Positions 8,355 through 23,664 of a DNA stretch of 64,000 bases are shown here, in pieces. Both the position numbers and the translations under genes were made by a program. Positions within the stretch are counted from its first letter, which is position 1, and each line of letters opens with the position of its first letter. Source of the DNA: Fimbriimonadaceae bacterium (GTDB lineage Bacteria; Armatimonadota; Fimbriimonadia; Fimbriimonadales; Fimbriimonadaceae); NCBI GenBank assembly GCA_019454105.1, contig CP075364.1:1739362-1803361 (forward strand), read 5' to 3'. Below the pieces are notes generated by a model. It searched no databases, was not told the DNA's origin, and was given only the letters and a program-made list of their open reading frames with translations.

Positions 8355-8372
8355 GAAGCTTTCCTCCCCGTA

Positions 8373-8639: not shown

Positions 8640-9035
8640 CTACGAACCGACCTCCCGACTCCGCAACGTCGCCCGATGAAAGGCCAAGCGGACTAAGAGG
8701 CCGCTTGCGAGACAAACCCCCCAAATTGGGATCGAATTGAGCAAGGCTTCAAACTGAGAGCCCGCAAAGCCCGATGGCTTAAAGAGCTCAGTCATGAGAG
8801 CGACAACCGCCATAAGGACAAACCAAAGGACTTGTCGATAAAGTGACGCCACCCCGACAACGAAACCGACGACAATTGAGGCGAGGCTGACAGCAAGCGC
8901 TTTGAGGAGCGGAAAGGGCACGACCAGCATGGTTTGCCACACAAGGAACACGTGGACACCCGCTCGCATGACGAAGATCGTCCCTGCAACAATGAGCTCA
9001 GTTGAGAGCTTAGTTCTCGCGATGGTTTGGTTCAC
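8640..9035 (-). CDS. Cassette A: small polytopic membrane protein
   Basis: About 131 residues from the GTG at 9035; a TTG at 9050 is an alternative. Four hydrophobic helices are visible (LIVAGTIFVMRAGVHVFLVW; LLKALAVSLASIVVGFVVGV; VLWFVLMAVVALM; IPIWGVCLASGLLVRLAF), with short loops and a charged tail HRATLRSREVGS. Size and topology, and a loop of the type ELFKPSGFAGSQF before the last helix, resemble the membrane proteins of cassettes B and C. It overlaps the pseudopilin gene by 26 nt, so translation is probably coupled. Function unknown; an assembly factor or an immunity-type partner are both possible. Confidence 0.7.
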   Translation of the reverse strand: MNQTIARTKLSTELIVAGTIFVMRAGVHVFLVWQTMLVVPFPLLKALAVSLASIVVGFVVGVASLYRQVLWFVLMAVVALMTELFKPSGFAGSQFEALLNSIPIWGVCLASGLLVRLAFHRATLRSREVGS

Positions 9036-9678
9036 CGAAATAATCTGCAAATGGCAGGAATTTACTCTCGAAGATTCCGTCGATAAACGCTGAGCTGTAA
9101 CCCATGGTCTTTGACCGCACTGAACCGTCGTTCACGAGTCTCTGATAAGGGCCAACGGTTCCCCTGTAGTTTCCGATCCTTCCTGGATCGCAAAGGGCCA
9201 GGTTGACCAGCCAGCCGACTTGGTCTCGATTCTCCATTCTCGCGACGTAGCTCTCTAATGTCCAGCCTCCGTCGCCCGGCCCAATATAGGTGGTTCTGAC
9301 AGTCGGCTTGAGTCTGACAAGTTGGTCAGGAGGCAAAGCGAGCGTCGAGACAAATCTGTTGGCGATCCCTTCCGTGGTCGGATCCAAAGGGCTCGTCACG
9401 ATTCCTTCCCCGACCAGACGGTCGGCCACGAGCTGCCGGACGGAAAGAGGTTGCACGTCGTTGTATTGAGAAGCATAAATGGCCGCAGCCTGGCCCAACT
9501 GTCGCAAATTGGACACGTCGACAACGACCTGAGCTCGAACCTGTGAACTACGATAGGCAACCCAAGAGAGGGAGATAAGGATCAGGACAATCGACACCAC
9601 GACCAAGACTTCGACCATCGTGAACGCCAATCTCTTACGCCCGAACGGTCGCTGGGCAGTCAAGGCTACTGGTCTCAT
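9010..9678 (-). CDS. Cassette A: type IV pseudopilin-like protein
   Basis: 222 residues. The N-terminus shows a prepilin peptidase site and methylation motif: a basic leader (RPFGRKRLA) then FTMVEVLVVVSIVLILISLSWVAYRSS, with Glu at +5 of the mature protein. The helix continues as NLRQLGQAAAIYASQYND, then a globular C-terminus of about 150 residues lacking known domains. It would be inserted in the inner membrane and incorporated into a type IV pilus or type II secretion pseudopilus after cleavage by PilD; those machines are not encoded here. Starts 5 nt after the cysteine-rich gene. Confidence 0.85.
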   Translation of the reverse strand: MRPVALTAQRPFGRKRLAFTMVEVLVVVSIVLILISLSWVAYRSSQVRAQVVVDVSNLRQLGQAAAIYASQYNDVQPLSVRQLVADRLVGEGIVTSPLDPTTEGIANRFVSTLALPPDQLVRLKPTVRTTYIGPGDGGWTLESYVARMENRDQVGWLVNLALCDPGRIGNYRGTVGPYQRLVNDGSVRSKTMGYSSAFIDGIFESKFLPFADYFGEPNHREN

Positions 9679-9683
9679 TTCGC

Positions 9684-10049
9684 TTATAGTTTGATGCACG
9701 AGCTCGAAGGACAGTCCGTCCCAAACGTCAGATTGGTGCAGAACCAGTCCCAACCTTCGTGGATCCGCTGGTAATAAAAACCGTTGCTGCACTGATAGCG
9801 TTCGCACCGGAATGTTTCCTTGCGCCTTGGCGTGTTCTGCTGGCAGTTGGCGTCTTGCACGGTCTGCTCCTTCGGGATCGCTGTGTCGTACTCGCAGACG
9901 CCACATGGCGGAGTCAACGGCCGTTCCGGCTCGAACACAAAGTCAGTCCTTGGCGGTCTACCCACATTGAGAGCATTGTAGTCAACGGGGGCCATGAACA
10001 GCATGAGTGCCGAAGCGAGAGGACAAAAAAGCACGAGCCACTTCACCAT
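9684..10049 (-). CDS. Cassette A: small cysteine-rich exported protein
   Basis: 121 residues from the ATG at 10049, with a signal peptide (MVKWLVLFCPLASALMLFMAP). The mature part carries eight cysteines, including CGVC, CERYQC and CPSSSC, and aromatic-rich stretches (NGFYYQRIHEGWDWFC). The spacing suggests a disulfide-stabilised extracellular domain. The frame is also open upstream through the G10 tract to a TTG at 10088, but the promoter-like elements argue for the start chosen, which would give a nearly leaderless transcript. First gene of cassette A. No database family is recognised. Confidence 0.7.
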   Translation of the reverse strand: MVKWLVLFCPLASALMLFMAPVDYNALNVGRPPRTDFVFEPERPLTPPCGVCEYDTAIPKEQTVQDANCQQNTPRRKETFRCERYQCSNGFYYQRIHEGWDWFCTNLTFGTDCPSSSCIKL

Positions 10050-10056
10050 CGGATTG

Positions 10057-10088
10057 AAGTTACCCCCCCCCCGCAAGCTGAATGTCAA
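10057..10088 (-). promoter_or_regulatory. Promoter with G10 spacer tract (phase-variable type)
   Basis: Minus strand: a perfect TTGACA (10088-10083), a 20-nt spacer ending in ten consecutive G (10072-10063), then TAACTT (10062-10057) as -10, only 7 nt before the ATG of the cysteine-rich gene. The 20-nt spacing is longer than the 17-nt optimum, so the sequenced state may be weak or off; loss of three G would restore 17. Confidence 0.6.
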
Positions 10089-10144
10089 TGTTTGAAGGAA
10101 GTTTCGAAAGATAGTTTGAAGCCCGTGTCAAAGCCGGGACCAGG

Positions 10145-12214
10145 TCACGCCGCGACCTGCCCCACGAACGAGACCTCCGCCTTGGCCGAAACCTCGTTAT
10201 AGGCCATCACCGGCACAGAAGGCAGGTGCCGTTCCAACAGCTTTCGGAGAGGCAACCGGATCGAGGCGCTGCAGAGCAAGACCGGCTGTTTGCCTTCGGC
10301 CTGGGCTTGCTCCATCTGCGCCTTGAGCGTGTCCAAGAGACGCGTCTGTAGTTCCGGCTCGACCGCCAGCACGGCCCCAGCCGCCGTCTGCTGAAGCGAC
10401 TCGACCAGGGCCCGCTCCAACTGAGTGTCAAGAGTCAGGCAGGTCAGCCCTCCCCCGTCGTCGGCGTACTGCCGGGTGATCGTCCGGGCCATGGCCGCAC
10501 GGACAAGCTCCCCGAGTTGTTCGGTGTCTTTCACCCGTGAGGCGAAGTCGGCCATCGTCTCCAGGATCGTCACGACGTCGCGCACCGGGATCCGTTCCCG
10601 GAGCAAATGCTGGAGCACCTTCTGCACGTCGCCGATCTGAGCTTGGTTCGGTAAGAGTTCGCTCACGACCGCCTCGTTTTGCTCCTTGGCCGTGTCGATG
10701 AGCCGTTGCACGTCTTGGCGGGTCAAGAGCTCGGCCGAATGGTTCTTCACGATCTCGCCCAGGTGCGTTCCGATCATCGCGCTCGGCTCGACCACCGTAT
10801 AGCCGTTGACCTCGGCGTGCTCCCGGTCGCCCGGGTCGATCCAGACTGCGGGCAACCCGAAGACGGGCTCCCGGGTCGGGATCCCCGCTAACGGGGGGCC
10901 GGAGCCGACCCCTGAGATCGCCAGCAATCGGTCGGGAAGGGCCTGAGCCCGCGCCACTTCCTCGCCCCGCACCTTCACCACGTACTCCTGCGGCGGGAGC
11001 CCGGCGTTGTCCCGGATCCGCACGCTCGGCATCACATAGCCGATTTCCAGGGCCAACTGCCGGCGGGTGGCGGTGACCCGCTCGGGCAGGTCGCCGCCGA
11101 CCCTTGAGTCGGCCAGCTTCGTGAGACCATAGCCGATCTCGATCTCGAGCTGGTCGACCGGAACGAGGGCCAGCACCGCTTCGGGCCCGGCCACCGGGGC
11201 GGGCGCGACTGGAACAGGGTCCTTCTTGGGCGGGGCAATGCCTTGGGCTTGGAGCGCCAGGTTCGGGTTCCTCTCAGAGATCCGCGAGAGCATGAAGAGC
11301 CCGGCCCCTACCGCAAGGAAGATCATCGTCGGAAACCCTGGAATGAAGGCGAAGGCACCGATGGCCGCGCCCGTGGACATGAGCACACGGGGCTGGGCGA
11401 GGATTTGGCCGACCAGTGTGCCGCCCATGCCAGCCTCTTGACCGTTGCGGGTGACCAAGAGGCCGCTCGAGGTCGAGATGAGCAAGGCGGGGATCTGTGA
11501 GACCAAGCCCTCGCCCACGCTCAGCAAAGCATACGTGCTGAGGATCTGGAGCGGGTCGCCCTGGCCGCGCATGAACCCGACCGCGAACCCACCGACGATG
11601 TTCACGATGATGATCAGGATCGAGGCGATGGCGTCGCCCTTCACGAACTTGCTGGCGCCGTCCATCGAGCCGTAAAAGTCGGCTTCCTGCTTGACCTGCT
11701 TGCGCCGTTGCCGCGCCCCTTCCTCGTCGATGAGCCCGGCTGCCAGGTCAGCGTCGATCGCCATCTGCTTGCCCGGCATCGCGTCCAAGGTGAAACGGGC
11801 CACGACCTCGGAGACGCGAGTCGCGCCGTTCGTGATGACGATGAACTGGACGATCATCAGGATGACGAAGGCCACGAACCCGACGACGAAGTCCCCGCCC
11901 AGGATGAAGCTTCCGAACGTCTGGATCACATGGCCGGCCTCGCCGGTGCCCAGGATCAACTTCGTCGCGGCGATGCTGAGCGCGAGCCTGAACAGGGTCG
12001 TGATCAAGAGCATCGACGGGAAGACGCTGAACTGAAGCGGATCCTTCACGTTCACCGCCGTCAAGAGGATCACCACTGAGGCGGCGATCGCCAGCACGAG
12101 CCCAAGATCCAAGGCCCAGTGGGGCATCGGCAGGATCAACATCGCCACGACCACGAGCACGCCGGCACCGATGAGCAGGTCGGTATGGCGGAGGATCTTG
12201 GCGAGAACAGCCAT
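10145..12214 (-). CDS. flhA: Flagellar export gate protein FlhA
   Basis: 689 residues, normal for FlhA, the large membrane component of the flagellar type III export gate. The N-terminal ~310 residues form multiple membrane helices. The conserved FHIPEP-family stretch (ITNGATRVSEVVARFTLDAMPGKQMAIDADL) is near residues 127-158, followed by the acidic cytoplasmic loop. A Pro/Ala-rich linker (PPKKDPVPVAPAPVAGPE) leads to the cytoplasmic domain that binds export chaperones. No other flagellar gene is in the window, so it is detached from a classical flagellar operon here. Its last ~115 bp are duplicated at 8457-8574. Confidence 0.97.
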   Translation of the reverse strand: MAVLAKILRHTDLLIGAGVLVVVAMLILPMPHWALDLGLVLAIAASVVILLTAVNVKDPLQFSVFPSMLLITTLFRLALSIAATKLILGTGEAGHVIQTFGSFILGGDFVVGFVAFVILMIVQFIVITNGATRVSEVVARFTLDAMPGKQMAIDADLAAGLIDEEGARQRRKQVKQEADFYGSMDGASKFVKGDAIASILIIIVNIVGGFAVGFMRGQGDPLQILSTYALLSVGEGLVSQIPALLISTSSGLLVTRNGQEAGMGGTLVGQILAQPRVLMSTGAAIGAFAFIPGFPTMIFLAVGAGLFMLSRISERNPNLALQAQGIAPPKKDPVPVAPAPVAGPEAVLALVPVDQLEIEIGYGLTKLADSRVGGDLPERVTATRRQLALEIGYVMPSVRIRDNAGLPPQEYVVKVRGEEVARAQALPDRLLAISGVGSGPPLAGIPTREPVFGLPAVWIDPGDREHAEVNGYTVVEPSAMIGTHLGEIVKNHSAELLTRQDVQRLIDTAKEQNEAVVSELLPNQAQIGDVQKVLQHLLRERIPVRDVVTILETMADFASRVKDTEQLGELVRAAMARTITRQYADDGGGLTCLTLDTQLERALVESLQQTAAGAVLAVEPELQTRLLDTLKAQMEQAQAEGKQPVLLCSASIRLPLRKLLERHLPSVPVMAYNEVSAKAEVSFVGQVAA

Positions 12215-12272
12215 AAGAAGGGCTCTTGGGGATTCTCGGCAAATTGGCGGGGAAGCTCAGGAGGGCCCGGAG

Positions 12273-12318
12273 CCTGGTGAGTCCACCAGGATGGCATTCA
12301 AGACGCAGAATGTGCCAT
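12273..12318. other. Two hairpins between divergent flhA and carboxypeptidase genes
   Basis: The 126-nt gap between the two starts holds a perfect 7-bp hairpin (CCTGGTG at 12273-12279 with CACCAGG at 12284-12290). A second inverted repeat follows (ATGGCA at 12291-12296 with TGCCAT at 12313-12318), then TTTTCCC. These could be operator sites, a leader structure or a weak terminator; no regulator can be named. Confidence 0.35.
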
Positions 12319-12340
12319 TTTCCCAAGACTGGTCAATGCC

Positions 12341-13543
12341 ATGAAACTGTCTGTGCGCACCCTTGCCCTCGCCGCGCTCTTCGCCCTGGCCGTCCCCTCC
12401 ATGGCCGCGGAAAACCTGTGGCGGATCTCCGTCGCCGCTCCAGACCCGGTGACCCTCGACCGGCTCATCGACACCGACGTCAACATTTTGGACTGCCACC
12501 CGCACCTGGGCAGCGTCAAAGCCGCCGCGACTCAGGACGAGGCCGTCCGGCTCCAACTCCAAGGTTTCAAGGTCACTTACCTGAACCCGATCCCGGACAC
12601 CAAGAACTGGGCTCGGTTCTTCGAGCACGTTCCGGCAAACTATCGGACGACCTACTACAATGCCGACCAGATCCTGGCCCACTTTGAAGCCCTCAGGGTC
12701 CAGTATCCGAGCTTCGTGACCCGGGCCCAAATCGGGACCTCGATCCTGAACGAGCCGATCTGGGTCTATCGAGTCGGTCGACCGCTCAAGATCGGAGGCA
12801 CCCCTGAGAACTCGATCATCGTCCTGGGCCTCCAGCACGCCCGAGAATGGGTCACCGGCTCCATCGTGATGCATGTCGGCACGATGGCTGCCCAGACCCT
12901 GGCGACGCCCCAAGCCGTGCCCTTCATGCTCAACCAGGCCCTCTATATCGTGCCGATCACAAACCCCGACGGATATCGGTTCACCTGGACGAACAACCGG
13001 CTTTGGCGCAAGAACCGCCGAAACAACGGGAACAACACCTTTGGAGTGGACCTCAACCGGAACTGGGCCAAGGGGTGGGGAGGTTCCGGCTCAAGCGGGA
13101 ACACCAACTCCGAGACTTACCGTGGGACAGCCGCGTTCAGCGAGCCTGAAACCCGGGCCCTGCGCGACTTCTCCAATGGCCTGCCCCGTGTCGGCGGCTT
13201 CCTCGACATCCACAGCTACTCGCAGCTCGTCATGTGGCCGTGGGGCTATTCGACGACCACACCCCCGAAAAACGACTACTTGAGGACCGGGGGCCAACGC
13301 ATGGAGGTCGAAATGGACAAGTTCGGGGCCAACTACACCAGCGGCCAGATCGCGACCCTCTTGTACGTCGCCAGCGGATGTTCGGTGGACTGGGTGTTCG
13401 ACATCAGGCAGTCGGCTTGCTACACCTATGAGATGCGCGACGAGGGCCAGTTCGGCTTCGAACTGCCGCCGAGCCAGATCGCGGTCTCGCAGGATGAAGG
13501 CTGGGCCGGCGTCAAGGAACTCCTGAAGTACGCCGGACCCTAG
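12341..13543 (+). CDS. Exported M14-family zinc carboxypeptidase
   Basis: 400 residues with a signal peptide (MKLSVRTLALAALFALAVPSMAA). After a ~90-residue propeptide-like N-terminus comes an M14 fold: zinc ligands H166 and E169 (QHAREW), H291 (LDIHSYSQ), the substrate-carboxylate Asn-Arg pair at 239-240 (LNRNW) and catalytic E364 (YTYEMRD). It should remove C-terminal amino acids from peptides outside the cytoplasm. The full catalytic set argues for activity; specificity is not predicted. Followed 35 nt later by an M42 aminopeptidase gene, suggesting a shared role in peptide utilisation. Confidence 0.93.
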   Translation: MKLSVRTLALAALFALAVPSMAAENLWRISVAAPDPVTLDRLIDTDVNILDCHPHLGSVKAAATQDEAVRLQLQGFKVTYLNPIPDTKNWARFFEHVPANYRTTYYNADQILAHFEALRVQYPSFVTRAQIGTSILNEPIWVYRVGRPLKIGGTPENSIIVLGLQHAREWVTGSIVMHVGTMAAQTLATPQAVPFMLNQALYIVPITNPDGYRFTWTNNRLWRKNRRNNGNNTFGVDLNRNWAKGWGGSGSSGNTNSETYRGTAAFSEPETRALRDFSNGLPRVGGFLDIHSYSQLVMWPWGYSTTTPPKNDYLRTGGQRMEVEMDKFGANYTSGQIATLLYVASGCSVDWVFDIRQSACYTYEMRDEGQFGFELPPSQIAVSQDEGWAGVKELLKYAGP

Positions 13544-13557
13544 GCCTCCGCTCGGCA

Positions 13558-13583
13558 CGCATCCGGTAACCTGAGCGGATGCG
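13558..13583 (+). promoter_or_regulatory. Hairpin enclosing the start codon of the M42 peptidase gene
   Basis: CGCATCCG (13558-13565) pairs perfectly with CGGATGCG (13576-13583) across a 10-nt loop; the ATG at 13579-13581 lies in the 3' arm. In the transcript this would hide the start codon unless ribosomes arriving from the carboxypeptidase gene (stop at 13543) open it. It may instead be coincidence or a protein-binding palindrome. Confidence 0.35.
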
Positions 13584-14643
13584 GGACGAGTCCCTAGAGT
13601 TCTTCAAAGCCATCGTCGACGCACCCTCGCCGTCCGGGTTCGAGCAACCCGCGGCGAGGGTCTTTCGTGACTACACCTCAAAGTTCGCGGACGAGGTCGT
13701 CACGGACGTCCACGGCAACACCTGGGCCGCCCTCAATCCCAAAGCCGAAGCCAGAGTCATGCTGGCCGGCCATATGGACGAGATCGGCTTCCAGGTCGCC
13801 CACATCACCGACGACGGGCTGATCTACTTCATGGGGATCGGTGGGCACGACTCCATGGTGCCGCTCGGCCAACGCGTCTGGATCCACGGCCGCGAGCGGG
13901 TCCCTGGCGTCATCAGCCGCAAGCCGGTCCATCTGCTTGAGAACAGCGAGAAGGACAAGCGCCCCGAGCTCCACGACCTCTGGATCGACATCGGCGCCAA
14001 GAACAAAGAGGAGGCCGAGGCCGTCGTCTCCATCGGCGACCCGGTCACCTATCAATGGGAGTTCCAGCACCTCATGGGCGACCGGGTCTGCGCCCGCGGT
14101 TTCGACAACAAGATGGGGGCGTTCGTCGTCGCCGAGGCTCTGCGGCTCGTGGCCGAGAAGGGCGCGCCCGAGGGGGTCGGGGTCTTCGCCGTGGCCACTG
14201 TCCAAGAGGAGGTCGGCCTGCGCGGGGCCAAGACCAGCGCCTACGCCATCGGGGCCCAAAGCGGCCTCGCGGTGGACGTCGACTTCGCCATCGACGTGCC
14301 AGGCCTCGCCAAGACCCGTTACGGCGTCGCCGACATGGGCAAGGGTCCGACCGTCACCCGGGGCTCCAACATCAACCCGGTCGTCTTCGAAACCCTCATG
14401 ACCGTGGCCAAAGAGGACGGGATCAACGTCCAGGTCGCGGCCTGGCCCGGCGGCACCGGCACCGACGCCAACGCCATGCAACTCAACCAGTCGGGTATGG
14501 CCACGGGCCTTGTCGGCGTGCCGATCCGCTACATGCACACGCCTTGCGAGCTGCTTGAGCTGAGAGATGTCGAGGATTGCGCCCGCCTCATGGCCGGCTA
14601 TTGCCTGCGCGTCCGCCCCGACACCGACTTCACCCCCCGCTGA
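13579..14643 (+). CDS. M42-family metalloaminopeptidase
   Basis: 354 residues, the usual length for M42 glutamyl aminopeptidase / endoglucanase M-like enzymes, which form large cytoplasmic tetrahedral complexes trimming peptides. Metal-binding H65 and D67 (AGHMDEIGF), the bridging Asp at 176 (GFDNKMGAF), catalytic Glu 210-211 (VQEEVGLRG) and the C-terminal metal His (YMHTPCELLEL) are all present. It lies directly after the exported carboxypeptidase and is cytoplasmic (no signal), consistent with final degradation of imported peptides. The start codon lies within a strong hairpin. Confidence 0.95.
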   Translation: MRDESLEFFKAIVDAPSPSGFEQPAARVFRDYTSKFADEVVTDVHGNTWAALNPKAEARVMLAGHMDEIGFQVAHITDDGLIYFMGIGGHDSMVPLGQRVWIHGRERVPGVISRKPVHLLENSEKDKRPELHDLWIDIGAKNKEEAEAVVSIGDPVTYQWEFQHLMGDRVCARGFDNKMGAFVVAEALRLVAEKGAPEGVGVFAVATVQEEVGLRGAKTSAYAIGAQSGLAVDVDFAIDVPGLAKTRYGVADMGKGPTVTRGSNINPVVFETLMTVAKEDGINVQVAAWPGGTGTDANAMQLNQSGMATGLVGVPIRYMHTPCELLELRDVEDCARLMAGYCLRVRPDTDFTPR

Positions 14644-14664
14644 CCGCCACTTGCGGGTGGTTCG

Positions 14665-14708
14665 TCCCCCCTCCCCCGACCAAGGGGGAGGGGTCAGGGG
14701 CTGGGGGC
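14665..14708 (+). repeat. GC-rich palindromic dispersed repeat, copy 1
   Basis: Core of complementary C-rich and G-rich arms (CCCCCTCCCCC, short loop, GGGGGAGGGG) followed by a tail TCAGGGGCTGGGGGC. Two related copies occur at 16658 and 16811, so three copies bracket cassette B. REP-like element by appearance; no associated transposase seen. Confidence 0.6.
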
Positions 14709-14844
14709 AACTCAGCCAACCGCCTACCTTCGGACAACGTCGTTTGGTTCAAGGCGCAGACCGTAGCGGCGCCGCCCGTGTGTGATGCCGCTTGCGCCAA
14801 TTCGAAGGGTCTTTCAATCCCGTCCAAGGGCAAGGACAAAGAAG

Positions 14845-15531
14845 CTACTCCGGACAAGGAACCCTCTCAAACTCATTGGCTGACATTAAATCCACGACTT
14901 CTTGCGGCGGATCGACATCCGTGAACAGCCCCCAATAGAGACGGTGGTATTCGATCGATCCGTCTTTTTTCTTGTAACAATGACCGGTCCAATTGACGTA
15001 CTTGACGCTTGAATCGATCCTTGACCGAAGAATAGGACCATAGTAATCGTACAGGTAAGGCGGCCCTTCTGTTCGGTTTCGCCGTGATCCATGGCTCACG
15101 CAGGCGATGAGTCCGTAGTTCGGATCCAGTTGTGTCAGTTTCTCCATGAAGACCGGCTCGTCGGTTAGAACCGAGATATAGCTGACGGGCGACCCAAGTT
15201 TGGCGCCCGCCTGAAAGTTGACGCCATGTCGGGTGCGGTCTTCCGGACACTTGCAAAGGGCAGGGTCGACCAGGTACGACAGGAGAGGTCGAAAGTCATA
15301 AAACATCTTCAATGGCAAAGCATCGTCGTTATCCCGCTTGTACATTTGTGCCGCGCTGGCGATCTGCCTCATGTTTACGGTGCAGGCCGCTCTCTTTGAT
15401 TGACTGATCGAAGACCGATATACGGGTACGACGATCGCCGCAATTGTCAAGACAATAGCGATCGCCACCAGAATCTCCATGAGCGTTAATCCAGTGGAAT
15501 GCCTGGATGATGAAGTCCTACGGTGCTTCAC
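14845..15531 (-). CDS. Cassette B: type IV pseudopilin-like protein
   Basis: 228 residues from a GTG at 15531, which overlaps the membrane-protein gene by 14 nt. The leader (KHRRTSSSRHSTG) precedes LTLMEILVAIAIVLTIAAIVVPVYRSS with Glu at +5, followed by NMRQIASAAQMYKRDNDD, typical of prepilin-like proteins cleaved by PilD. The C-terminal domain contains six or so cysteines (CKCPEDR, IACVS, GHCYKKK, VPCPE), unlike the cassette A pseudopilin. Last gene of the cassette. Role is presumably in a pilus or secretion pseudopilus encoded elsewhere. Confidence 0.85.
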   Translation of the reverse strand: MKHRRTSSSRHSTGLTLMEILVAIAIVLTIAAIVVPVYRSSISQSKRAACTVNMRQIASAAQMYKRDNDDALPLKMFYDFRPLLSYLVDPALCKCPEDRTRHGVNFQAGAKLGSPVSYISVLTDEPVFMEKLTQLDPNYGLIACVSHGSRRNRTEGPPYLYDYYGPILRSRIDSSVKYVNWTGHCYKKKDGSIEYHRLYWGLFTDVDPPQEVVDLMSANEFERVPCPE

Positions 15532-15985
15532 TATGAAAATGTCTCGCTATCACAATAAAGCCTAGATACGCCCCGAGCAAGCGCAACATGAGCGGATAGA
15601 CATCGAGCAAGAAGCTGCCTGGCCCCCAAGGTTTGTAAAGTGTCAACCATCCGACGACTGCGGCCGCAAGAACGGTGATCAGGCTGGCCGTTCGCGAAGC
15701 AGAGTCAAGACCCCATTGAAGGCCCGCAAAAACCCCACCGACCGCAGCCGCCGCTAGCCCCACAGGGGTGAAACCGGCAACGAGGCCCCGGCTGACTGCC
15801 AATGCCATGGGCGGGCCGCCTTCTTCTGAATTGGAAGACGCGAGGCTCGTCACGAGCCCCCCGATAACGAACCCAGCGGAAAGGGTAAGAGCGTGGCCCA
15901 GGGTCTGGCAGGCCCCGTGCCATGCCACCGCTTGGAGTCGGCTCCATTGTCGCGAGGGTCTTGTTAGTTGGGAACTCCGTTGCAT
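15518..15985 (-). CDS. Cassette B: small polytopic membrane protein
   Basis: 155 residues from the ATG at 15985, overlapping the cysteine-rich gene by 22 nt. Four hydrophobic helices (ALTLSAGFVIGGLVTSLAS; GLVAGFTPVGLAAAAVGGVFAGL; ASLITVLAAAVVGWL; LMLRLLGAYLGFIVIARHF), with a loop LYKPWGPGSFLLD before the last one that resembles the ELFKPSGFAGSQF loop of cassette A. A longer frame upstream lies over the cysteine-rich gene and is not used. Likely homologous to the other cassette membrane proteins but highly diverged. Function unknown. Confidence 0.7.
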   Translation of the reverse strand: MQRSSQLTRPSRQWSRLQAVAWHGACQTLGHALTLSAGFVIGGLVTSLASSNSEEGGPPMALAVSRGLVAGFTPVGLAAAAVGGVFAGLQWGLDSASRTASLITVLAAAVVGWLTLYKPWGPGSFLLDVYPLMLRLLGAYLGFIVIARHFHSEAP

Positions 15986-16422
15986 TCGTCTAATCCGCTC
16001 TCGCCTGGGCAAGGAGGCCCGGTGCTTGTGGCTGTGCAACAAGCACCATCGTCTTGCCAGACTCCACAGGAAACCCAGGTCCCTTGGTTTCCGCACTTCC
16101 ACTTCCATCGCGGACGTGTCTGGCGGTACCAATCAGTGTTCTGCGCCGCTTCACATTGGGGCTCCAGAAGGCCTCTTTGCCGACAACGCGTTTGACCTGA
16201 CATTGGGATCACCTCACAGTTGCTCGGGCAGGCTGGCACCGCCGCCGGTCGGTCGTTGCTGGTCGATTCGCGGCAGAGGAGTGGCTCCGTGGCCCCGATG
16301 AATGAATCACCAAACCCTTGACTTTCCAAACTGAAATCAACGTCCGATACTAGGGCGGGCCACAGAACTGGTGACGAAATCACAGCACAAGACACTACGA
16401 TGTTGAGAAATTCTCGATGCAT
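15964..16422 (-). CDS. Cassette B: small cysteine-rich exported protein
   Basis: 152 residues with a signal peptide (MHREFLNIVVSCAVISSPVLWPALVS). The mature chain has eleven cysteines, including a CPSNC pair, a WKWKC, an adjacent GACC pair and a terminal DEC, and tryptophan-rich segments (NTDWYRQTRPRWKWKC). The arrangement, W-x-C then C then CC then two more C near the end, parallels the cassette C protein (YTC, VLC, GDCC, TNC, LPC). The ATG is preceded by an AT-rich leader and, 24 nt upstream, a G10 tract. No known family recognised. Confidence 0.75.
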   Translation of the reverse strand: MHREFLNIVVSCAVISSPVLWPALVSDVDFSLESQGFGDSFIGATEPLLCRESTSNDRPAAVPACPSNCEVIPMSGQTRCRQRGLLEPQCEAAQNTDWYRQTRPRWKWKCGNQGTWVSCGVWQDDGACCTATSTGPPCPGESGLDECNGVPN

Positions 16423-16432
16423 TTTTTAAGAT

Positions 16433-16464
16433 TACTTACCTGCCTACCCCCCCCCCTTTTTTAA
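16433..16464 (-). promoter_or_regulatory. Candidate promoter containing G10 tract
   Basis: Minus strand: ten consecutive G (16456-16447) lie between TTAAAA (16464-16459, 4/6 match to -35) and TAAGTA (16438-16433), a 20-nt spacer like that of cassette A. The matches are weaker than in cassettes A and D. The -10 candidate is 10 nt from the ATG, so the transcript would be nearly leaderless. Confidence 0.4.
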
Positions 16465-16657: not shown

Positions 16658-16696
16658 CCCCCCAATTCACGGGGGAGGGGGTCAGGGGGCGGGGGC
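16658..16696 (+). repeat. GC-rich palindromic dispersed repeat, copy 2
   Basis: CCCCC, short AATTCAC loop, GGGGGAGGGGG, then tail TCAGGGGGCGGGGGC. Same organisation as the copies at 14665 and 16811, with a shorter 5' arm. Confidence 0.6.
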
Positions 16697-16810
16697 GCGC
16701 ATCGCCCGCAGAACGCGGCTACCGAGCCCGCGGCGAGCCCGCGCCGGGCGCAAGAGAGCCGGCTGGCCGAAGGCGGACTGAAGTCCGCCGCTCCGAACAG
16801 CCCGACGCTT

Positions 16811-16851
16811 CCCCTCCCCCGTTCACGGGGGAGGGGGCAGGGGGTGGGGGC
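16811..16851 (+). repeat. GC-rich palindromic dispersed repeat, copy 3
   Basis: CCCCTCCCCC, loop GTTCAC, GGGGGAGGGGG, then tail CAGGGGGTGGGGGC. It is the most symmetrical copy and lies 48 nt upstream of the GTG of the MFS/spermidine-synthase gene, so it could also affect that gene's expression. Confidence 0.6.
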
Positions 16852-16898
16852 TAGCCAGCTCCCGGCGAAAGCCCGCCTCCGAGTATCCTCCCACGCCA

Positions 16899-19070
16899 GT
16901 GCGCTGGCTGTTCACGCTGACGGTCTTCCTCGGCTCGGGGCTCCTGTTCCTCATTCAGCCGATCGTCGGCAAGATGGCCCTCCCCAGTTTTGGCGGCACA
17001 CCCGCCGTCTGGAACACAAGCCTCCTCTTCTTCCAAGCCTTGCTCCTGGCCGGGTACGCCTATGCCCACTACAGCCTGAGGTGGCTCGGCCCCAGGATCC
17101 AACCCTGGGCCCACGTCGTGCTTTTCGCCGGGGCGATCCTCCTCACGGTGCCGCTCGCGGTCAGGGGCGTGAGCCCCGAGCTCGCCGTCTCGAACCCGGT
17201 TCCCTATCTTCTCGCGACCCTCGCCGCCGCGGTCGGGCCGCTCTTCTTCGTGCTCTCGGCCGGAGCGCCGCTTGTGCAACGCTGGTTCAGCCAGACCGAC
17301 GACCCCGCCGCCAAGGATCCCTACTTCCTCTATGCGGCGAGCAACGCCGGGTCGCTCGTCGGGCTCCTCAGCTACCCGTTCGTGATCGAGCCACGGCTCC
17401 GGCTCTCGCAACAAGCCGACTTCGTGGCGGCCCTGGCCGGTGCGGTCGCGGTGCTCCTGGCAGCCTGTGCCGTCGTCCTCCGGGGCCATCCGGCCCCCGA
17501 ATCGTCAGCGCCCATAGACCAGGGGGCCCCGTCCCTCCGGCAGCGGGCCCGCTGGGTGCTGCTTGCGGCCGTGCCCAGCAGCCTCTTGATGTCGGTGACG
17601 ACCTATCTCACCACCGACCTCGCCCCGGTGCCGCTCCTTTGGGTCGTGCCCCTCGCGCTCTATCTCGTCACGTTCATTGTCGCCTTCTCGGCCCGCAACA
17701 CGCTCAAGCCCGCCACCGCCGCCCGGTTCGTGCCGGTGCTGGTGACGCCCCTGTTGCTGGTGCTTGTGCTCGAGTCCACAAGCCCGCTGGTGCCGCTTGC
17801 CGCTCTTCATCTGGCCGCTTTCACCGCCGTCGCCCTGGCCCTGCACACGAGTCTCGCCAGCGAGAGGCCGGGCCCGGCCCGCCTCACCGAGTTCTATCTT
17901 TGGGTCTCGGTGGGTGGTGTCGCGGGCGGGCTGGTGAACACGGTGGTTGCCCCGCTCGTCTTCCCTGGGCTCTTCGAATACCCGCTCGGGCTCGTGGCCG
18001 CTTGCGCCCTTTTGGCCGCCCGACCTGGGAAGGAGGGCTTCGTCCGGGCCGACTGGGTCTATCCCTTGGCGGTCGGGCTGGCAACCTTGGTGCTCATCTC
18101 GATGGCCCGGCGGCTGGGAATGGAACCCGGCGGCCCGCGGACGGCCCTCACGATCGGCTTGCCCGCTGTGCTCGCATTCCTTGCCTCGGGGCGGCCTTAC
18201 CGGTTCGCGGGGTCGGTTCTGGCCGTGCTGGCCGCTTCGCACTTCATGGGCACCGTCATGGTGGGACGAAACCTTGAAGTGACCCGAAGCTTCTTCGGGG
18301 TGCACCGAGTGATGGTGACCGCCGACCGGGAAAGGCGCATGCTTCTGCACGGCAACACGATCCACGGGCAACAGAGCCTTCTCCCCGAGCACCGGGACAA
18401 GCCCCTGACCTACTACTATGAGACCGGCCCGATCGGCCAGGTCTTTGCCGAGCTGAACCGGACAGGGCGGCTGCATCGGGCGGCGATGGTCGGGCTCGGC
18501 GTCGGGTCCCTGGCCGCCTATGGCAAGCCCGGACAGCAGTTCACGTTCTATGAGATCGACCCGACCGTCGTCCGGCTCGCCAGGGACTCAGGCTGGTTCG
18601 ACTTCCTGGCCAAGTCCCGGGCCAACGTCCGCATCGTGCTCGGGGACGCCCGTTTGACCCTGGGCCAGGCCACCGAACGCTATGACCTGCTCGTGGTGGA
18701 CGCATTCAGCTCCGACTCGGTGCCGATCCACCTGATCACCCGTGAGGCGATCAAGATGGACTTTGACCGGCTCGAACCCCAGGGCCTGCTGGCTGTCCAT
18801 ATTTCGAACCGTTATCTGGAACTGGCACCGGTCCTCGCGACCATAGCCGCCGACCTCGGGCTCAAGGCTTGGATCAACGAGGACGCCTACGTCCTCCCGG
18901 AAGAGTCGGCCATCGGCAAGTTCGCCTCCACTTGGGTCGTGCTGGCCCGCGACGAGGCGGACCTCGGGGATTTGGCACGACACAGAGACTGGTCGAGCCT
19001 AGACCCTGAGCCGGGTAAGCCGGTCTGGACCGACGATTACGCCCCCGTGTTCTCGGCCCTCAGGGACTGA
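16899..19070 (+). CDS. Fused membrane transporter-like / spermidine synthase-like protein
   Basis: 723 residues from a GTG at 16899. About the first 470 residues form many hydrophobic helices (starting RWLFTLTVFLGSGLLFLIQPIVGKMALP, a signature of this fused family). The C-terminus is a spermidine-synthase-like Rossmann fold: VGLGVGSLAAYGKPGQQFTFYEIDPTVV, a GDAR motif and LLVVDAFSSDSVPIHL. In known polyamine synthases the D of the aminopropyl-transfer site sits in the VVDAFSSD region, which is present. Whether it makes polyamines or uses the domain otherwise is not known for the family. Convergent with the Ro60-like gene, overlapping by 34 nt. Confidence 0.9.
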   Translation: MRWLFTLTVFLGSGLLFLIQPIVGKMALPSFGGTPAVWNTSLLFFQALLLAGYAYAHYSLRWLGPRIQPWAHVVLFAGAILLTVPLAVRGVSPELAVSNPVPYLLATLAAAVGPLFFVLSAGAPLVQRWFSQTDDPAAKDPYFLYAASNAGSLVGLLSYPFVIEPRLRLSQQADFVAALAGAVAVLLAACAVVLRGHPAPESSAPIDQGAPSLRQRARWVLLAAVPSSLLMSVTTYLTTDLAPVPLLWVVPLALYLVTFIVAFSARNTLKPATAARFVPVLVTPLLLVLVLESTSPLVPLAALHLAAFTAVALALHTSLASERPGPARLTEFYLWVSVGGVAGGLVNTVVAPLVFPGLFEYPLGLVAACALLAARPGKEGFVRADWVYPLAVGLATLVLISMARRLGMEPGGPRTALTIGLPAVLAFLASGRPYRFAGSVLAVLAASHFMGTVMVGRNLEVTRSFFGVHRVMVTADRERRMLLHGNTIHGQQSLLPEHRDKPLTYYYETGPIGQVFAELNRTGRLHRAAMVGLGVGSLAAYGKPGQQFTFYEIDPTVVRLARDSGWFDFLAKSRANVRIVLGDARLTLGQATERYDLLVVDAFSSDSVPIHLITREAIKMDFDRLEPQGLLAVHISNRYLELAPVLATIAADLGLKAWINEDAYVLPEESAIGKFASTWVVLARDEADLGDLARHRDWSSLDPEPGKPVWTDDYAPVFSALRD

Positions 19071-20587
19071 TCGGCGACGAAGGCCCGGAGCGCGGCTGGC
19101 ACCGAGAGGTCAAACCCTGCGATATCGAGCATGGATGAGTCCTCAGGGTCCGAGAGGGCGAACCCGGCCGACGTCATCCCCAAGACCGCGAGACGGGCTG
19201 GGATTCCAGTCTTCGCACGGTACTGGTGCATGGCCCGCACCGGGTGCACGTCGCGGAAGGTCGTCTCGTTGTCGGTCAGGACGATGAACGCGTCCGCTTC
19301 GATCCGATTGCGCTGGGCCCACACCATCGGGGCGGCGCAGTCCGTGCCCTCGAAGTCCCTCTCACCCGTCATCCGCACGGCTTCGTCTAGGGTCGTCTCG
19401 CGCGTGAGGGCCAAGGGCTTGAGGCCACCCGCGAAGGCCAGGATCGAGACCTCGGTTTCGGCGGCCAAGACGCTGAGGGCGAGCGCAGCCGCTGCCTCCC
19501 CAGCCGTCAGCCCCGTCCCCCCGACCATAGAAGAGCCCATCGACCCGGAAACGTCAAGGGCGACAACGTAGCGCTTGTCGGTCGGTTCGAGCGAGCCGAG
19601 AGCCAAACGAAACGCCCCACTGAGGGCCTCGACGACTCGCGGGACTGGCTCCCAAGACCGTTGGCCCCGAACGTAGGCGGCCTCGGCCAGGGGCAGTGCG
19701 ACGGGATGGACCCGCGCCCGCCTGAGCAGGGTCTCGTTGCCCAGTTTCTCGACCACGAACTTCGTCGCTTGGCTGGTCTCGGTGAGCAACCCGACCCGAG
19801 TCATATTAGCGAGGTTGCGGAGCATCGACTCAAGCGGCATGTCCTGGAGGAGGGCTTCCCAAACCTCGGGATGGGACAGCAACCGGCTCGGGACACAATC
19901 CCGAGTCAGTCGATGACCGGAGACATGTCGGGCCGCTTCCCGTGGATCGTCAGTCTCATTGAGCCGAACATAGGCTTCAATGGTGGGGTTGGTGCCGGTG
20001 AGTTCGCCGTCAGTGATCCACTTGAACAGAGTGCGGTGGGCGTCGCTCGGCGGTTTGGGGTGCGCGAGCCGGAGCACGTCTCGGTGCGTCCAACCGCCGT
20101 GCTGCTGGTGCCGCAAGGCCTGAAGGGTGAGGTCGTCGACGGGCGTGAGAAGGTACCAGTCCGCGACAGCGCGCCTCATCGAGCGTCCCCATCCGCGCAT
20201 CGCACTGGCGTGGGCGGCAAACTGGAGGAGCAAGGAGCCCGACCGACAGACTTGGGGCAAGGCGGCAAAGGCGGCCTGGCGGGTCTCTGTGTCGCCGAAG
20301 CTGACGGCCAAAGCAAGGGCGAAAACGGCCGGCTCTGGTTTGGCAGCGCGCCCCGATCGGGCGACGTCGACCGTGTGCTTGACTGCCCGCGCCCCGTCGG
20401 ACTTCAGACACTGAATCGTGCTTTGGGCTTGGCCAGGCTGGAAGTCAGGCTCGCCAGGCACGTAACAACCGTGCTCGGAGCCAAGGTTGAGGAAACGTTC
20501 GAACCGGATCCATGGAGTGTAGGGGATCCTCGACTCGTCGCCTTCCGCCGAAGGGCGGTTCCATCCAAAGGGGCTTTTGAGTCGCAT
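19037..20587 (-). CDS. Ro60/TROVE-domain RNA-binding protein (bacterial Ro)
   Basis: 516 residues, the normal size of bacterial Ro proteins. The TROVE HEAT-like ring occupies about residues 1-330 (MPLESMLRNLANMTRVGLL near 250-268 is characteristic). A von Willebrand A domain follows with an intact MIDAS DVSGSMGSS (345-353), T..D and FIVLTDNE elements. Ro binds misfolded RNAs and Y RNAs; bacterial forms tether exonucleases such as PNPase through Y RNA. The >500-nt region upstream lacks genes but is unusually rich in stable hairpins, where a Y RNA gene would be expected. Confidence 0.93.
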   Translation of the reverse strand: MRLKSPFGWNRPSAEGDESRIPYTPWIRFERFLNLGSEHGCYVPGEPDFQPGQAQSTIQCLKSDGARAVKHTVDVARSGRAAKPEPAVFALALAVSFGDTETRQAAFAALPQVCRSGSLLLQFAAHASAMRGWGRSMRRAVADWYLLTPVDDLTLQALRHQQHGGWTHRDVLRLAHPKPPSDAHRTLFKWITDGELTGTNPTIEAYVRLNETDDPREAARHVSGHRLTRDCVPSRLLSHPEVWEALLQDMPLESMLRNLANMTRVGLLTETSQATKFVVEKLGNETLLRRARVHPVALPLAEAAYVRGQRSWEPVPRVVEALSGAFRLALGSLEPTDKRYVVALDVSGSMGSSMVGGTGLTAGEAAAALALSVLAAETEVSILAFAGGLKPLALTRETTLDEAVRMTGERDFEGTDCAAPMVWAQRNRIEADAFIVLTDNETTFRDVHPVRAMHQYRAKTGIPARLAVLGMTSAGFALSDPEDSSMLDIAGFDLSVPAALRAFVADQSLRAENTGA

Positions 20588-20636
20588 CGGTCCGTCCTCA
20601 GATCATTTTGTCCCCATCTGGGCTGGCCCCTCCCGA

Positions 20637-20756
20637 CCTGTGGGCAAAGATCACGGCCCACAGGCGGTCGGTGCGGCTCGCAAGGCCGGAACCGAGGCTG
20701 ATCAGGCCTCGGGTCCGACAATGGCGGCTGGGGTCTGGCCCTCCGCAGAGCGGAGG
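20637..20756. ncRNA. Candidate structured RNA (Y-RNA-like) upstream of the Ro gene
   Basis: Three compact structures follow one another. A 9-bp hairpin: CCTGTGGGC at 20637-20645 with GCCCACAGG at 20656-20664. A three-way-junction-like fold at 20667-20719: GTCGG/CCGAC closes over a CGGC/GCCG hairpin with a 7-nt loop and a CCGAGGC/GCCTCGG hairpin with a 7-nt loop. A 7-bp hairpin: CCTCCGC-AGA-GCGGAGG at 20740-20756. Two 7-nt loops under one closing stem recall a tRNA-like module, as in bacterial YrlA RNAs. Position beside a Ro gene supports a Y RNA; the strand is not determined and no consensus Ro-binding stem was proved. Confidence 0.45.
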
Positions 20757-21179
20757 ATCGGTATAAGTCCTGTCGAGGAACGCGCCCACCACCCCCAGGC
20801 CGGTCAGCCAGCCGTGCGACGCCGGATGGCTTGGTCGATAGGGATCACCGATATCCGCATTGCGGAGCCGATCCAGATCAGTTGTGGGTCAAGGAGGGGA
20901 TATCGCGCTCATCGAGTCTTCTGAGCGCGGCGGCCGGGGCCAGGCTCAGAAGAGAGGCACGCCGAGTGTGCGTGCCACGAGGTCGTTTGCTTTGTGCTGA
21001 ACTCTCATGGTCTCTTCTCCTCCCAATATCGGGGAGTCAGGGCGTGGGAGGATTGCACATCGGAATGGCCCTTGTCAATGATCCGGGACTTCATGCCCTT
21101 CCCTCAGTGTGGTCTCGGTCTGGGGCCGGGAGCATCCTCGACGTCTCCACGACCGTAACTAACAGTGGTTCGAAAACTC
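20757..21179. other. Gene-free interval with two further perfect hairpins
   Basis: No convincing coding sequence. It contains an 8-bp hairpin CGCGCTCA/TGAGCGCG (20904-20929) and a 7-bp hairpin GGCACGC/GCGTGCC with a 7-nt loop (20956-20976). An open plus-strand frame here lacks protein-like composition. The promoter of the SPFH gene must lie toward the right end. Confidence 0.5.
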
Positions 21180-22136
21180 ATGTCCAACGAGATCATCATC
21201 CCCCCGCCCATGGAGACCCGGTCTCAAGCCCTCGCCCGGGCGGCGACCCCCACGACGATCCCCAACCCAGTCCCTGGACTTGCTTTCCTCGGCATCCTGG
21301 GAGCGGGTATCTCTGTCTTCTGGCCCTCTTTGCCAGCAGTCGGCGGCGCCATCGGGATGGCCGCCAGCGGCCTCCTGGCCGCCTTCGTCGCCGCCTCGAT
21401 CAAGGTCGCGGCCCAGTGGGAAAAGGCGCTGGTCTTCCGGCTTGGCCGGTTTGCGGCGACAAAAGGGCCGGGACTGTTCCTCATCATTCCCGGGCTTGAC
21501 GCTGTCCGCGCCGTGGACACACGGATCCAAACCATTGACATTCCCCACCGTCAAGCGATCACCAAGGACAACGTCCCTGTACGGGTGGACGGGGTCATCT
21601 TCATGCGGGTCAGCGACCCTGGGGCCGCCGTCACCCGGGTCCAGAACTACACCCGGGCCGTGCTTGAGTACGCCCAGACCGCCCTCCGCGACATCGTTGG
21701 CAGCATGACGCTCGATGAGATCCTCGCCGACCGCGAGTTGCTTGGGCAACGGGTCGAGGACATGGTCACTCACGAGATCGAAGGCTGGGGCCTGGACGTC
21801 GCCGCGATCCGCATCCAGGACATCGAGTTGCCCGAAGACCTCAAGAGGGTCATGGCCCGGCAGGCCAGCGCCGAGCGTGAGAAGCGGGCGACCATTACCA
21901 AGGCCGAGGGCGACCGTGAGGCCGCTGAGAACCTCGCGGCGGCCGCCCAAAAGATGGCGGCCTCACCCGGTGCGCTCCAGCTCCGGACGCTCCAGTCCCT
22001 CGATTCTCTCGGAAGCTCGCCGTCGAACACCATCGTCCTCGCCGTCCCGGTCGAACTCACGAACGCCCTTTCGGCAGTGCCGAAGTTGGCTGAAGCCTTG
22101 AAGCCAGCCGCTTCTGAGGAGAGGGGTTCCAGTTGA
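21180..22136 (+). CDS. SPFH/Band 7 (stomatin/prohibitin-like) membrane protein
   Basis: 318 residues from the ATG at 21180 (a GTG 15 nt upstream is possible). Two hydrophobic segments lie near the N-terminus (GLAFLGILGAGISVFWPSLPAVGG and GMAASGLLAAFVAASI). The Band 7 domain follows: ALVFRLGRFAATKGPGLFLIIPGLDAVRAVDTRIQTIDIP, then TKDNVPVRVDGVIFMRV and ATRVQNYTRAVLEYAQTALRDIVGSMTLDEIL. After it comes the helical RQASAEREKRATITKAEGDREAAENLAAAAQ. Such proteins oligomerise on the inner face of the membrane and scaffold proteases or microdomains. No NfeD partner is adjacent. It ends 4 nt before the convergent pseudopilin gene of cassette C. Confidence 0.93.
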   Translation: MSNEIIIPPPMETRSQALARAATPTTIPNPVPGLAFLGILGAGISVFWPSLPAVGGAIGMAASGLLAAFVAASIKVAAQWEKALVFRLGRFAATKGPGLFLIIPGLDAVRAVDTRIQTIDIPHRQAITKDNVPVRVDGVIFMRVSDPGAAVTRVQNYTRAVLEYAQTALRDIVGSMTLDEILADRELLGQRVEDMVTHEIEGWGLDVAAIRIQDIELPEDLKRVMARQASAEREKRATITKAEGDREAAENLAAAAQKMAASPGALQLRTLQSLDSLGSSPSNTIVLAVPVELTNALSAVPKLAEALKPAASEERGSS

Positions 22137-22140
22137 CCGG

Positions 22141-22818
22141 TCAGTTCTTGTGGGCGGGGTTGTCCGTGAAAAGCGAGTAAAAGTAAATTGACGTGAACAC
22201 TTCGCCGGGTTCTCGTCCAACAGTCGTTTCGAGCTGCAAGACCTTCCTCGCGACTGATCCGTCAAGTCGAACACGCAGATAGGGCCCGACCAAGGCGGCA
22301 GTAGGGGCCCTGTCGCATCTGAATTCGCCAACGCTACCCCGGTCTCCAAACACTCGAAGAGCCAGAATTCCTGGGTTCTGATCAAGGCGTTCGAGGAGAT
22401 AGGACAGTCGAGAGTCCATCGAACTCAAGGTTCCGTCATGGAGCGACTCCCAACTCATCCTCTCGTCTCCCCTTACCGAGTTGGCGCTTCGACAATCGAT
22501 GATGAAGTTCGCGTAACCTTGTTCAGTGGGATCCTCCCGGTAGTCAGCGATTCCTGCGAGAAGGTTACGTGGTAGCGCGGCCGGGCCTAGCGGAGGAAAC
22601 TTTTCCTGGTTGGACTCGCGATAGAGCATCAAGGCTCCCCAAAGTTGTCGCCCGTCCGATGTCGCCTGACCGCGCCGTCCCTCCATAAGGCCTGACCTCA
22701 ATGCCGGTTGCACCAAGGCGAACAAGATCCCAACGATCAAGACAATGATGAGGATCTCGAACAGCGAGAAGGCTCTTGTTGACTGCCTTTGAGCTTTAAC
22801 TGCCTTGAACTCTCTCAT
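22141..22818 (-). CDS. Cassette C: type IV pseudopilin-like protein
   Basis: 225 residues. A long basic leader (MREFKAVKAQRQSTRA) precedes FSLFEILIIVLIVGILFALVQPALRSG, with Glu at +5 and the hydrophobic spine of a prepilin. The helix continues through DGRQLWGALMLYRESNQEKFPP. The globular C-terminus is unrelated by eye to those of cassettes A and B apart from general layout. The start overlaps the membrane-protein gene by 23 nt. Processing by PilD and incorporation into a pilus-like fibre are inferred from the N-terminal motif. Confidence 0.85.
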   Translation of the reverse strand: MREFKAVKAQRQSTRAFSLFEILIIVLIVGILFALVQPALRSGLMEGRRGQATSDGRQLWGALMLYRESNQEKFPPLGPAALPRNLLAGIADYREDPTEQGYANFIIDCRSANSVRGDERMSWESLHDGTLSSMDSRLSYLLERLDQNPGILALRVFGDRGSVGEFRCDRAPTAALVGPYLRVRLDGSVARKVLQLETTVGREPGEVFTSIYFYSLFTDNPAHKN

Positions 22819-23197
22819 TGATCACTTTCTCAAAATGTAGACTTGTCAGCCAGGCCAGAACGACCGTCAGCAAGAGTGCGGCCGTACTGGCAACAATCTT
22901 TCCACCATTGTCGTTGGGGCCAGTAAGTCGCGGAATCTGATTGGCAAGGAAAAGACACAAGACGGTGCCTAGGATAATGAGTAGACTTGACTTCACACGC
23001 GCCTTCCATGTCAACAGGACAACCGGTATTGTCAGGAAAATCAAGAACTCAGGAACCACCCGACGCAAAGTGAGGACAAAGAAGTCGACTGTTGCAGAGG
23101 TTCCCGTCCACCATGCAAGGGTCGCGGTCATAGCGGCTAAGGCCGTCGCTCCGATCGAGACGGCTAGGATCTTCCAAATGGATCGGTCGTCGGTCAC
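22796..23197 (-). CDS. Cassette C: small polytopic membrane protein
   Basis: 133 residues from the GTG at 23197, which overlaps the stop of the cysteine-rich gene (GTGA). Four hydrophobic segments (ILAVSIGATALAAMTATLAWW; VPEFLIFLTIPVVLLTW; SLLIILGTVLCLFLA; IVASTAALLLTVVLAWLTSLHF), with a loop NQIPRLTGPNDNGGK before the last one. Length, helix count and position of the Gly-rich loop match the cassette A and B membrane proteins. Function unknown. A TTG at 23206 is an alternative start. Confidence 0.7.
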   Translation of the reverse strand: MTDDRSIWKILAVSIGATALAAMTATLAWWTGTSATVDFFVLTLRRVVPEFLIFLTIPVVLLTWKARVKSSLLIILGTVLCLFLANQIPRLTGPNDNGGKIVASTAALLLTVVLAWLTSLHFEKVINERVQGS

Positions 23198-23664
23198 ATT
23201 CCGCAAGGCAACTCACCGTTCTTTCCGTAGCAATTGGTCGGCGGTCGGTCTTCTCCTGGCCCACCATACCAACAACAGTCGCCTGTCTGATACCATGGCT
23301 GTGGACACAGGACGCGGTTGACTGCGAACCCACCTTCCGTCGTGCATGTGTAAAGCTTGTAAGTCCGGCGCCAAACGAACGACTTCTGCCAAGGCACAAT
23401 CGACATACAATCGTTGTCGTATGGCCGACAGATGTCGTGAACCTCGTCCTTGAAGTGAACGCAGTTTGGACCACAGTCGCTTTGCGGCCCGTACGCTTCT
23501 TGCGTCGCCGGAGGCAGGTCGGTGACACATTGAGTCTTCGTACCCTTGAGAGAGCCGGGACTTATATAGCCTTCCGGTTCAATGCGGACGATCCTGTCGT
23601 CTTGCCCGCTCCATAGAAGAGTGCTTGAAGCTAGCAATGAACCTTCCACTATATATTCGACCAT
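23194..23664 (-). CDS. Cassette C: small cysteine-rich exported protein
   Basis: 156 residues. The N-terminal hydrophobic stretch is short (GSLLASSTLLWSG), so export is less certain than for cassettes A and B. Eleven cysteines include CGPNC, CRPYDNDC, YTC, VLC, an adjacent GDCC pair, TNC and LPC; aromatic motifs such as SFVWRRTYKLYTC recur. The second half aligns in cysteine order with the cassette B protein. First gene of the cassette; a C8 tract lies 37 nt upstream of the ATG. No known family recognised. Confidence 0.7.
   Translation of the reverse strand: MVEYIVEGSLLASSTLLWSGQDDRIVRIEPEGYISPGSLKGTKTQCVTDLPPATQEAYGPQSDCGPNCVHFKDEVHDICRPYDNDCMSIVPWQKSFVWRRTYKLYTCTTEGGFAVNRVLCPQPWYQTGDCCWYGGPGEDRPPTNCYGKNGELPCGM

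Follow-up and report, generated by a model that had tools for sequence, protein, structure and literature searches.

We asked what a set of highly diverged three-gene cassettes might do for a free-living bacterium. The cassettes belong to Fimbriimonadaceae bacterium GCA_019454105.1, whose genome of 2.74 Mb we read in targeted stretches, and three of them, A, B and C, lie in the 64,000 nucleotides (nt) of contig CP075364.1 that we analysed as a whole, hereafter the window. Each of these three codes for a cysteine-rich secreted protein, a minor pilin and a small polytopic membrane protein. The answer that we favour, with modest confidence, is that the secreted cysteine-rich proteins are phase-variable and that each is displayed or exported by its own minor pilin, part of a type IV filament. 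Most cassettes have a simple sequence repeat at the 5' end, a probable on/off switch that tells more about the loci than any other feature. It was absent from the first-pass annotation of this DNA, as were the G or C tracts upstream of A, B and C, a poly-G operon at 6790-8401 and five more cassettes of the same genome. Coordinates are those of the window unless given in kb or as genome positions, and all tract lengths are lengths as assembled.

Cassette A is preceded by a promoter (10057..10088, minus strand) in which TTGACA (10083-10088) is followed by a 20-nt spacer containing G10 (10063-10072) and by TAACTT (10057-10062), with the ATG 7 nt further on. In cassette B a G10 tract (16447-16456) abuts TAGGCA (together 16441..16456, minus strand), as read from the sequence and the list of tracts. 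Cassette C has a C8 tract on the coding strand (23702..23709, minus strand); a possible promoter, TTGCTG-17-AATACT, follows it closely and is itself a short way ahead of the ATG. The other cassettes of the genome carry G16 (D), an interrupted G8 (E, G6AG8), C8 (at 1205.6 kb) and G7 (at 1834.6 kb). In all seven cassettes of this genome that have an upstream region of their own, 7-16 consecutive G or C stand no more than about 75 nt before the start. Of 356 control open reading frames (ORFs) of the same genome, 6 have a G/C run of at least 7 in the 75 nt upstream, and cassettes may be among them. Several promoters have a TAnnnT directly adjoining the end of the tract, 6-7 nt before the ATG, and TTGACA on the tract's other side; cassette A, an operon at 303.6 kb and loci L072, L074, L076 and L085 of relatives follow this design. 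Spacers in the same taxonomic family range from 15 to 22 nt, and the short distance between the −10 element and the ATG suggests that the predicted mRNAs are leaderless.

Could these be ordinary secreted-protein operons, with homopolymers that arose by chance, by GC bias or as assembly artefacts? Homopolymer assembly errors are common and several cassettes have no repeat, but we consider this very improbable because G runs of at least 8 are rare (30 sites on either strand of the 2.74-Mb genome) and yet are located at cassettes. Among the 15 G tracts of at least 9 in this genome, 8 stand before operons for exported proteins, including A, B and D, and 4 fall in signal-peptide codons. In 61 genomes the pattern TTGACA-N0-14-G8 was matched 42 times, at some 27 places, and the reversed pattern 9 times; in the same taxonomic family the figures are 34, overlapping matches counted, and 3, which also argues against an artefact. 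So does the fact that other genera have repeats of different motifs in the corresponding position, namely C8 (G009), G9 (G024-C5), C10 (G029-C19), A10 (G042) and an (AG)12 that precedes two tandem, divergent cassettes of G024 with near-identical promoters.

In the genus g37 the poly-G lies inside the cysteine-rich gene, just past the signal peptide. In the two tandem copies of G058 the 141 nt preceding the tract and the 41 nt following it are the same. The tract itself differs, G15 leaving one copy in frame for a 182-aa (amino acid) protein and G10 putting the other out of frame, so that it ends in a 44-aa stub. The in-gene tracts of relatives would read as off in G056 (G9) and G057 (G11) and as on in G059 (G12). 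These differences in tract length are, as far as sequence can tell, the strongest evidence for slippage. The loci show two marks of a repeat-mediated phase-variable locus: a repeat is present, and its length as assembled differs among copies and relatives in a way that would change frame or spacing.

In the same two copies of G058, one shared 5' block precedes mature domains that have diverged. This would also be expected if surface-antigen variation by recombination were the main function, with 5' blocks and cassettes shuffled and exchanged and slippage secondary. Two divergent cassettes whose (AG)12 promoters are almost the same, and the shuffled gene order described below, point the same way, as does a 112-bp copy, 89% identical by alignment and blastn, of the 3' end of flhA (8457..8568, minus strand). 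It sits between cassette A and the next operon, with intact flhA (10145-12214) on the other side of the cassette, an arrangement that a recombinational insertion bringing a foreign flhA tail would leave. We identified no silent cassette store or recombinase, however, and A, B and C have no detectable DNA identity with one another, which makes recombination quite unlikely as the main function.

We then considered how widely the cassette occurs and how tightly its genes are linked. Iterated profile searches of 291 Armatimonadota genomes found the cysteine-rich family at 29 loci in 18 genomes of four families; since the search was made mainly within Armatimonadota, restriction to the phylum is not to be read from this distribution. 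Besides A, B and C, the loci comprise 2 in the same genome and 24 in 17 other genomes. A match in a nineteenth genome, G227, was rejected as chance (internal stops, no adjoining pilin). By sequence comparison the cysteine-rich proteins are one new family across both gene orders, with a profile-profile E-value of 1.5e-14 between the two gene-order groups and 0.4-0.9 for column-shuffled controls. The order cysteine-rich/membrane/pilin is found in B, C, G024, G091, G040, G095, G094, G017, G046, G058 and G042, and the order cysteine-rich/pilin/membrane in A, E, G009, G059, G056, G183, G180, G072 and G035.

When the ORFs at each locus were inspected, all 29 loci proved to have a prepilin next to the cysteine-rich gene (one prepilin is a remnant), and 27 of the 29 also have a small polytopic membrane protein. 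In two cases, G029 (L217) and G091 (L225), the membrane protein and the pilin are fused in a single ORF, four helices being followed by the prepilin motif. The pilin C-terminal profile recovered more cassettes in G024, G029 and G062, and the genome under study has eight in all, the three beyond A-E lying at 1205.6-1204.0, 1204.1-1202.7 and 1834.6 kb. The modular three-gene set proposed by the first-pass annotation is therefore borne out, and the converse that it had offered as a test, families found mostly apart from one another, is clearly not what the genomes contain.

Its claim that the cassettes were undescribed also stands, as neither Pfam nor NCBIfam gave a match above cut-off for the cysteine-rich proteins, the membrane proteins or the C-terminal parts of the pilins. 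The cysteine-rich proteins tested had no significant Pfam match, hence no PilY1-type domain. A profile search of the PDB with the cysteine-rich profile returned nothing, PHROGs gave weak matches and nothing significant, and none of the PADLOC anti-phage models matched the cysteine-rich or membrane proteins. No plasmid match was found by tblastn with the cysteine-rich protein of cassette B, and the family was not found in 20 genomes reached through promoter-pattern loci, most of which belong to other phyla; this is a weak negative.

The pilins form the second conserved component. Aligned across 25 of them, the prepilin cleavage/methylation motif, the Glu at +5 and the hydrophobic helix are all found, and the first two are intact in A, B and C, as first described. 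Only the N-termini match general prepilin models of Pfam and NCBIfam. For PF07963 (cut-off 21.2) cassette A scores 22.3 bits, and B and C fall below at 19.2 and 14.4. The type II pseudopilin models GspG/H/I/J gave no full-length match, the N-terminal stretch alone reaching at most 30.8 bits against a cut-off of 88.85 for GspG. The C-terminal domain is common to both gene orders (profile-profile E 1.9e-20, column-shuffled controls 0.4-0.9). Its profile finds just 7 of the more than 40 prepilins of the genome, those of A, B, C and E and three that revealed further cassettes, and matches few prepilins in 20 genomes. The pilins of A, B and C match it with E-values of 6.6e-47, 6.1e-56 and 4.2e-51, each being one of the profile's rows; both the A5 and the A8 profile include A, B, C and E, and own-genome E-values are thus not independent. 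Pilins of the same family occur without a recognised cysteine-rich partner in G006, G009, G032, G180-C9 and G059-C61. At one locus of G009 (G009:C1:1-4500, L272), C13 and C18 lie at 365-414, upstream of a membrane-pilin pair with a pilin of this family. With 41 PF07963 matches (prepilins) and nine PF00437 ATPases above cut-off, filament machinery is available in the genome under study.

Topology and position are all that the membrane proteins have in common. As a single sequence family they were rejected, with a profile-profile probability of about 0, and the expectation that components would align across cassettes is accordingly upheld for the cysteine-rich proteins alone of these two. Divergence past alignment is one reason to consider a phase-variable secreted bacteriocin-like toxin, for which the membrane protein would be the immunity factor and the pilin part of the export route. 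Toxin-immunity pairs offer a parallel: the secreted proteins are small, disulfide-rich and far diverged, and the cognate membrane protein of each is divergent as well. We nonetheless regard a toxin as unlikely: the strict linkage to a pilin is unexpected for immunity systems, a promoter switch would silence immunity along with the toxin, and no known toxin or immunity family was matched in Pfam, NCBIfam, PHROGs or PADLOC.

The nine ORFs of A, B and C are all present on the minus strand where the first-pass annotation had placed them. Cassette A codes for a cysteine-rich secreted protein of 121 aa (9684..10049), a member of the new family with a signal-peptide-like N-terminus, for the minor pilin with its cassette-specific C-terminal domain (9010..9678) and for a membrane protein of 136 aa with 4-5 hydrophobic helices (8640..9050), which has no family match in Pfam or NCBIfam. 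In cassette B a cysteine-rich protein of 152 aa (15964..16422; family E 2.8e-46, a row of the profile) is followed by a four-helix membrane protein of about 136 aa with a GTG start (15518..15928) and by a minor pilin (14845..15531; GspG N-terminus only, 30.8 bits). This membrane protein alone matched the Tim17/Tim22 model PF02466, with 19.7 bits against a cut-off of 32.7. Cassette C has a cysteine-rich protein of 156 aa (23194..23664; family E 4.6e-38, likewise a profile row), a four-helix membrane protein of 136 aa (22796..23206) and a minor pilin (22141..22818; GspG N-terminus only, 29.6 bits).

The gene orders reported for A and for B and C hold, as do the cysteine counts of the mature parts: 8 in A (9 in total), 11 in B (12 in total) and 11 in C. 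GC content is lower than in the surroundings, at 0.52-0.62 versus 0.62-0.70 in most flanks. The description of the genes as overlapping needs correction at two junctions, the pilin of A starting at 9678, 5 nt past the cysteine-rich gene, and the membrane gene of B most likely starting at GTG 15928, which leaves a 35-nt gap; the remaining junctions do overlap. A dispersed intergenic repeat of about 40 bp, of the CCCTCCCCC-GTGAACGGGGGAGGGG type, occurs at 14668-14707 and 16806-16850 and at 405, 1222.5 and 2013.2 kb of the genome.

Poly-G promoters are a wider feature of this genome. Poly-G as a mark of the three-gene cassettes alone was dropped, as two other types of operon in the genome have it. 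One lies beside cassette A (6790..8401, minus strand), with TTGACA (8396-8401), the 17-nt spacer gcgcG8acagg and TACTGT, the same promoter design as in the cassettes. It codes for a secreted protein of 182 aa (7806-8354) and one of about 340 aa, neither with a Pfam match. Two paralogues of this operon, at 303.6 kb and at 1190.4 kb, have G9 in a 17-nt spacer. All three operons of the type pair a secreted protein of about 145-180 aa with one of about 330-390 aa, and in all three TTGACA and TAnnnT are exactly 17 nt apart with G8-G9 between them. G022 (L071, L083) and G024 (L065, 6192-7772) have likely relatives. The other type, at 1341.0 and 1563.5 kb of the genome (L042, L045), consists of an exported protein of about 370 aa followed by one of about 380-410 aa; the motifs HG and DACHCG/DSCHSG of the exported protein recall caspase-like peptidases, and the pair at 1563.5 kb has no Pfam match. 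At genome positions 1216084, 1230901, 1353928 and 1543110, 9-10 G or C lie in the signal-peptide codons of secreted proteins of 500-600 aa, and in the assembled sequence the signal peptide of three of the four is not in frame with the rest. In other phyla, PulG/GspG-like pilin genes stand behind TTGACA-spacer-G8-13-TAnnnT promoters in several copies per genome: L102 and L104 (Omnitrophota), L109, L139, L140 and L171 (bacterium FW104_bin.10; G8, G9, G9 and G13) and L151 (Saccharibacteria). To judge from their promoters, these are possible phase-variable pilins.

How do the cassettes compare with known systems? Verru_Chthon (NCBIfam TIGR02596 and partners) is a named cassette whose pilin-like members, as here, lie outside classical pilus operons. 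It too is a multi-copy cassette. TIGR02596 gave 15.9 and 17.1 bits against a cut-off of 70, over the N-terminal prepilin stretch only. In Neisseria, pilC1 and pilC2 encode a type IV pilus-tip protein and are turned on and off by frameshifts in a poly-G tract, 9-15 long, towards the 5' end of the coding sequence (PMC5320596, PMC3960869). The in-gene poly-G of g37 likewise spans lengths of 9-15; unlike pilC, to which no sequence relation was found, the cysteine-rich gene specifies a protein of 100-200 aa, shares its operon with a pilin gene and a membrane gene dedicated to it, and exists in many copies per genome. Together with pilC, the nearest models of the switch are the promoter tracts of Neisseria porA, fetA and opc and of Treponema pallidum tpr and tp0126, where poly-G or poly-C lies in or at the −35/−10 spacer, 17 nt being optimal (PMC5320596, PMC7864442). 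Those genes encode outer-membrane proteins of pathogens, whereas the cassettes are pilin-linked operons of an environmental phylum with −10-to-ATG distances suggesting leaderless mRNAs; our literature search found no paper linking Armatimonadota with phase variation. The closest working model of the trio is Vibrio cholerae TcpF, which binds the minor pilin TcpB of the same operon and is secreted through pilus action (PMC9565799). TcpF and TcpB, which we liken to the cassettes by gene layout, also pair an operon-encoded secreted protein with a minor pilin, but belong to a full pilus operon for which no repeat switch is described.

We therefore return to phase-variable, pilin-borne proteins as the favoured explanation. 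Each cassette would be a short operon in which the gene for a secreted cysteine-rich protein is joined by one for a minor (pseudo)pilin of its own and one for a small polytopic membrane partner, and the trio would work with the cell's type IV filament machinery for display on the filament tip or for export. The pilin would carry the cysteine-rich protein and the membrane protein would aid assembly. Slippage of the repeat would alter the −35/−10 spacing, or in g37 the reading frame past the signal peptide, so that cassettes toggle at random and the cells within a clone differ in which members of a diversified repertoire they present. The genomes themselves display the linkage, one cysteine-rich and one pilin family, the 5' repeats and frame-changing lengths between otherwise identical 5' blocks; switching of the cassettes is well supported on these grounds and would presumably take place in living populations.

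Several points weigh against this explanation. Assemblies can misstate the length of a homopolymer, which leaves the on/off state read for any one gene uncertain. No clear repeat lies upstream of at least six cassettes (G095, G094/G017a, G046, G072, G024-C19 and G029-C6), cassette D has no membrane gene, and the membrane proteins fail to align. Structure models of the cysteine-rich protein and the pilin of cassette B, predicted with the three sequences of the window, were too poor for use, their mean pLDDT (predicted local distance difference test) being 40 and 41. Finally, switching, expression and surface location are all deduced from DNA, and the tie between cysteine-rich protein and pilin from gene linkage.

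The function of such proteins may be surface interaction, that is adhesion, or escape from phage and grazers. Repeat-driven phase variation has been studied mostly in pathogens facing host immunity; if our explanation is true, a rich set of such switches in an environmental phylum would point to phage, grazers or rivals as what drives them. What is gained is a new protein family, and with it a definite hypothesis of how its members are exported. We give even chances to the broader proposal that free-living Armatimonadota possess an unrecognised contingency system, in which dozens of cysteine-rich proteins with their own pilin and membrane partners, under independently arisen repeats (G, C, A or AG in promoters, or in the signal-peptide region), would form a changing filament-borne mosaic.

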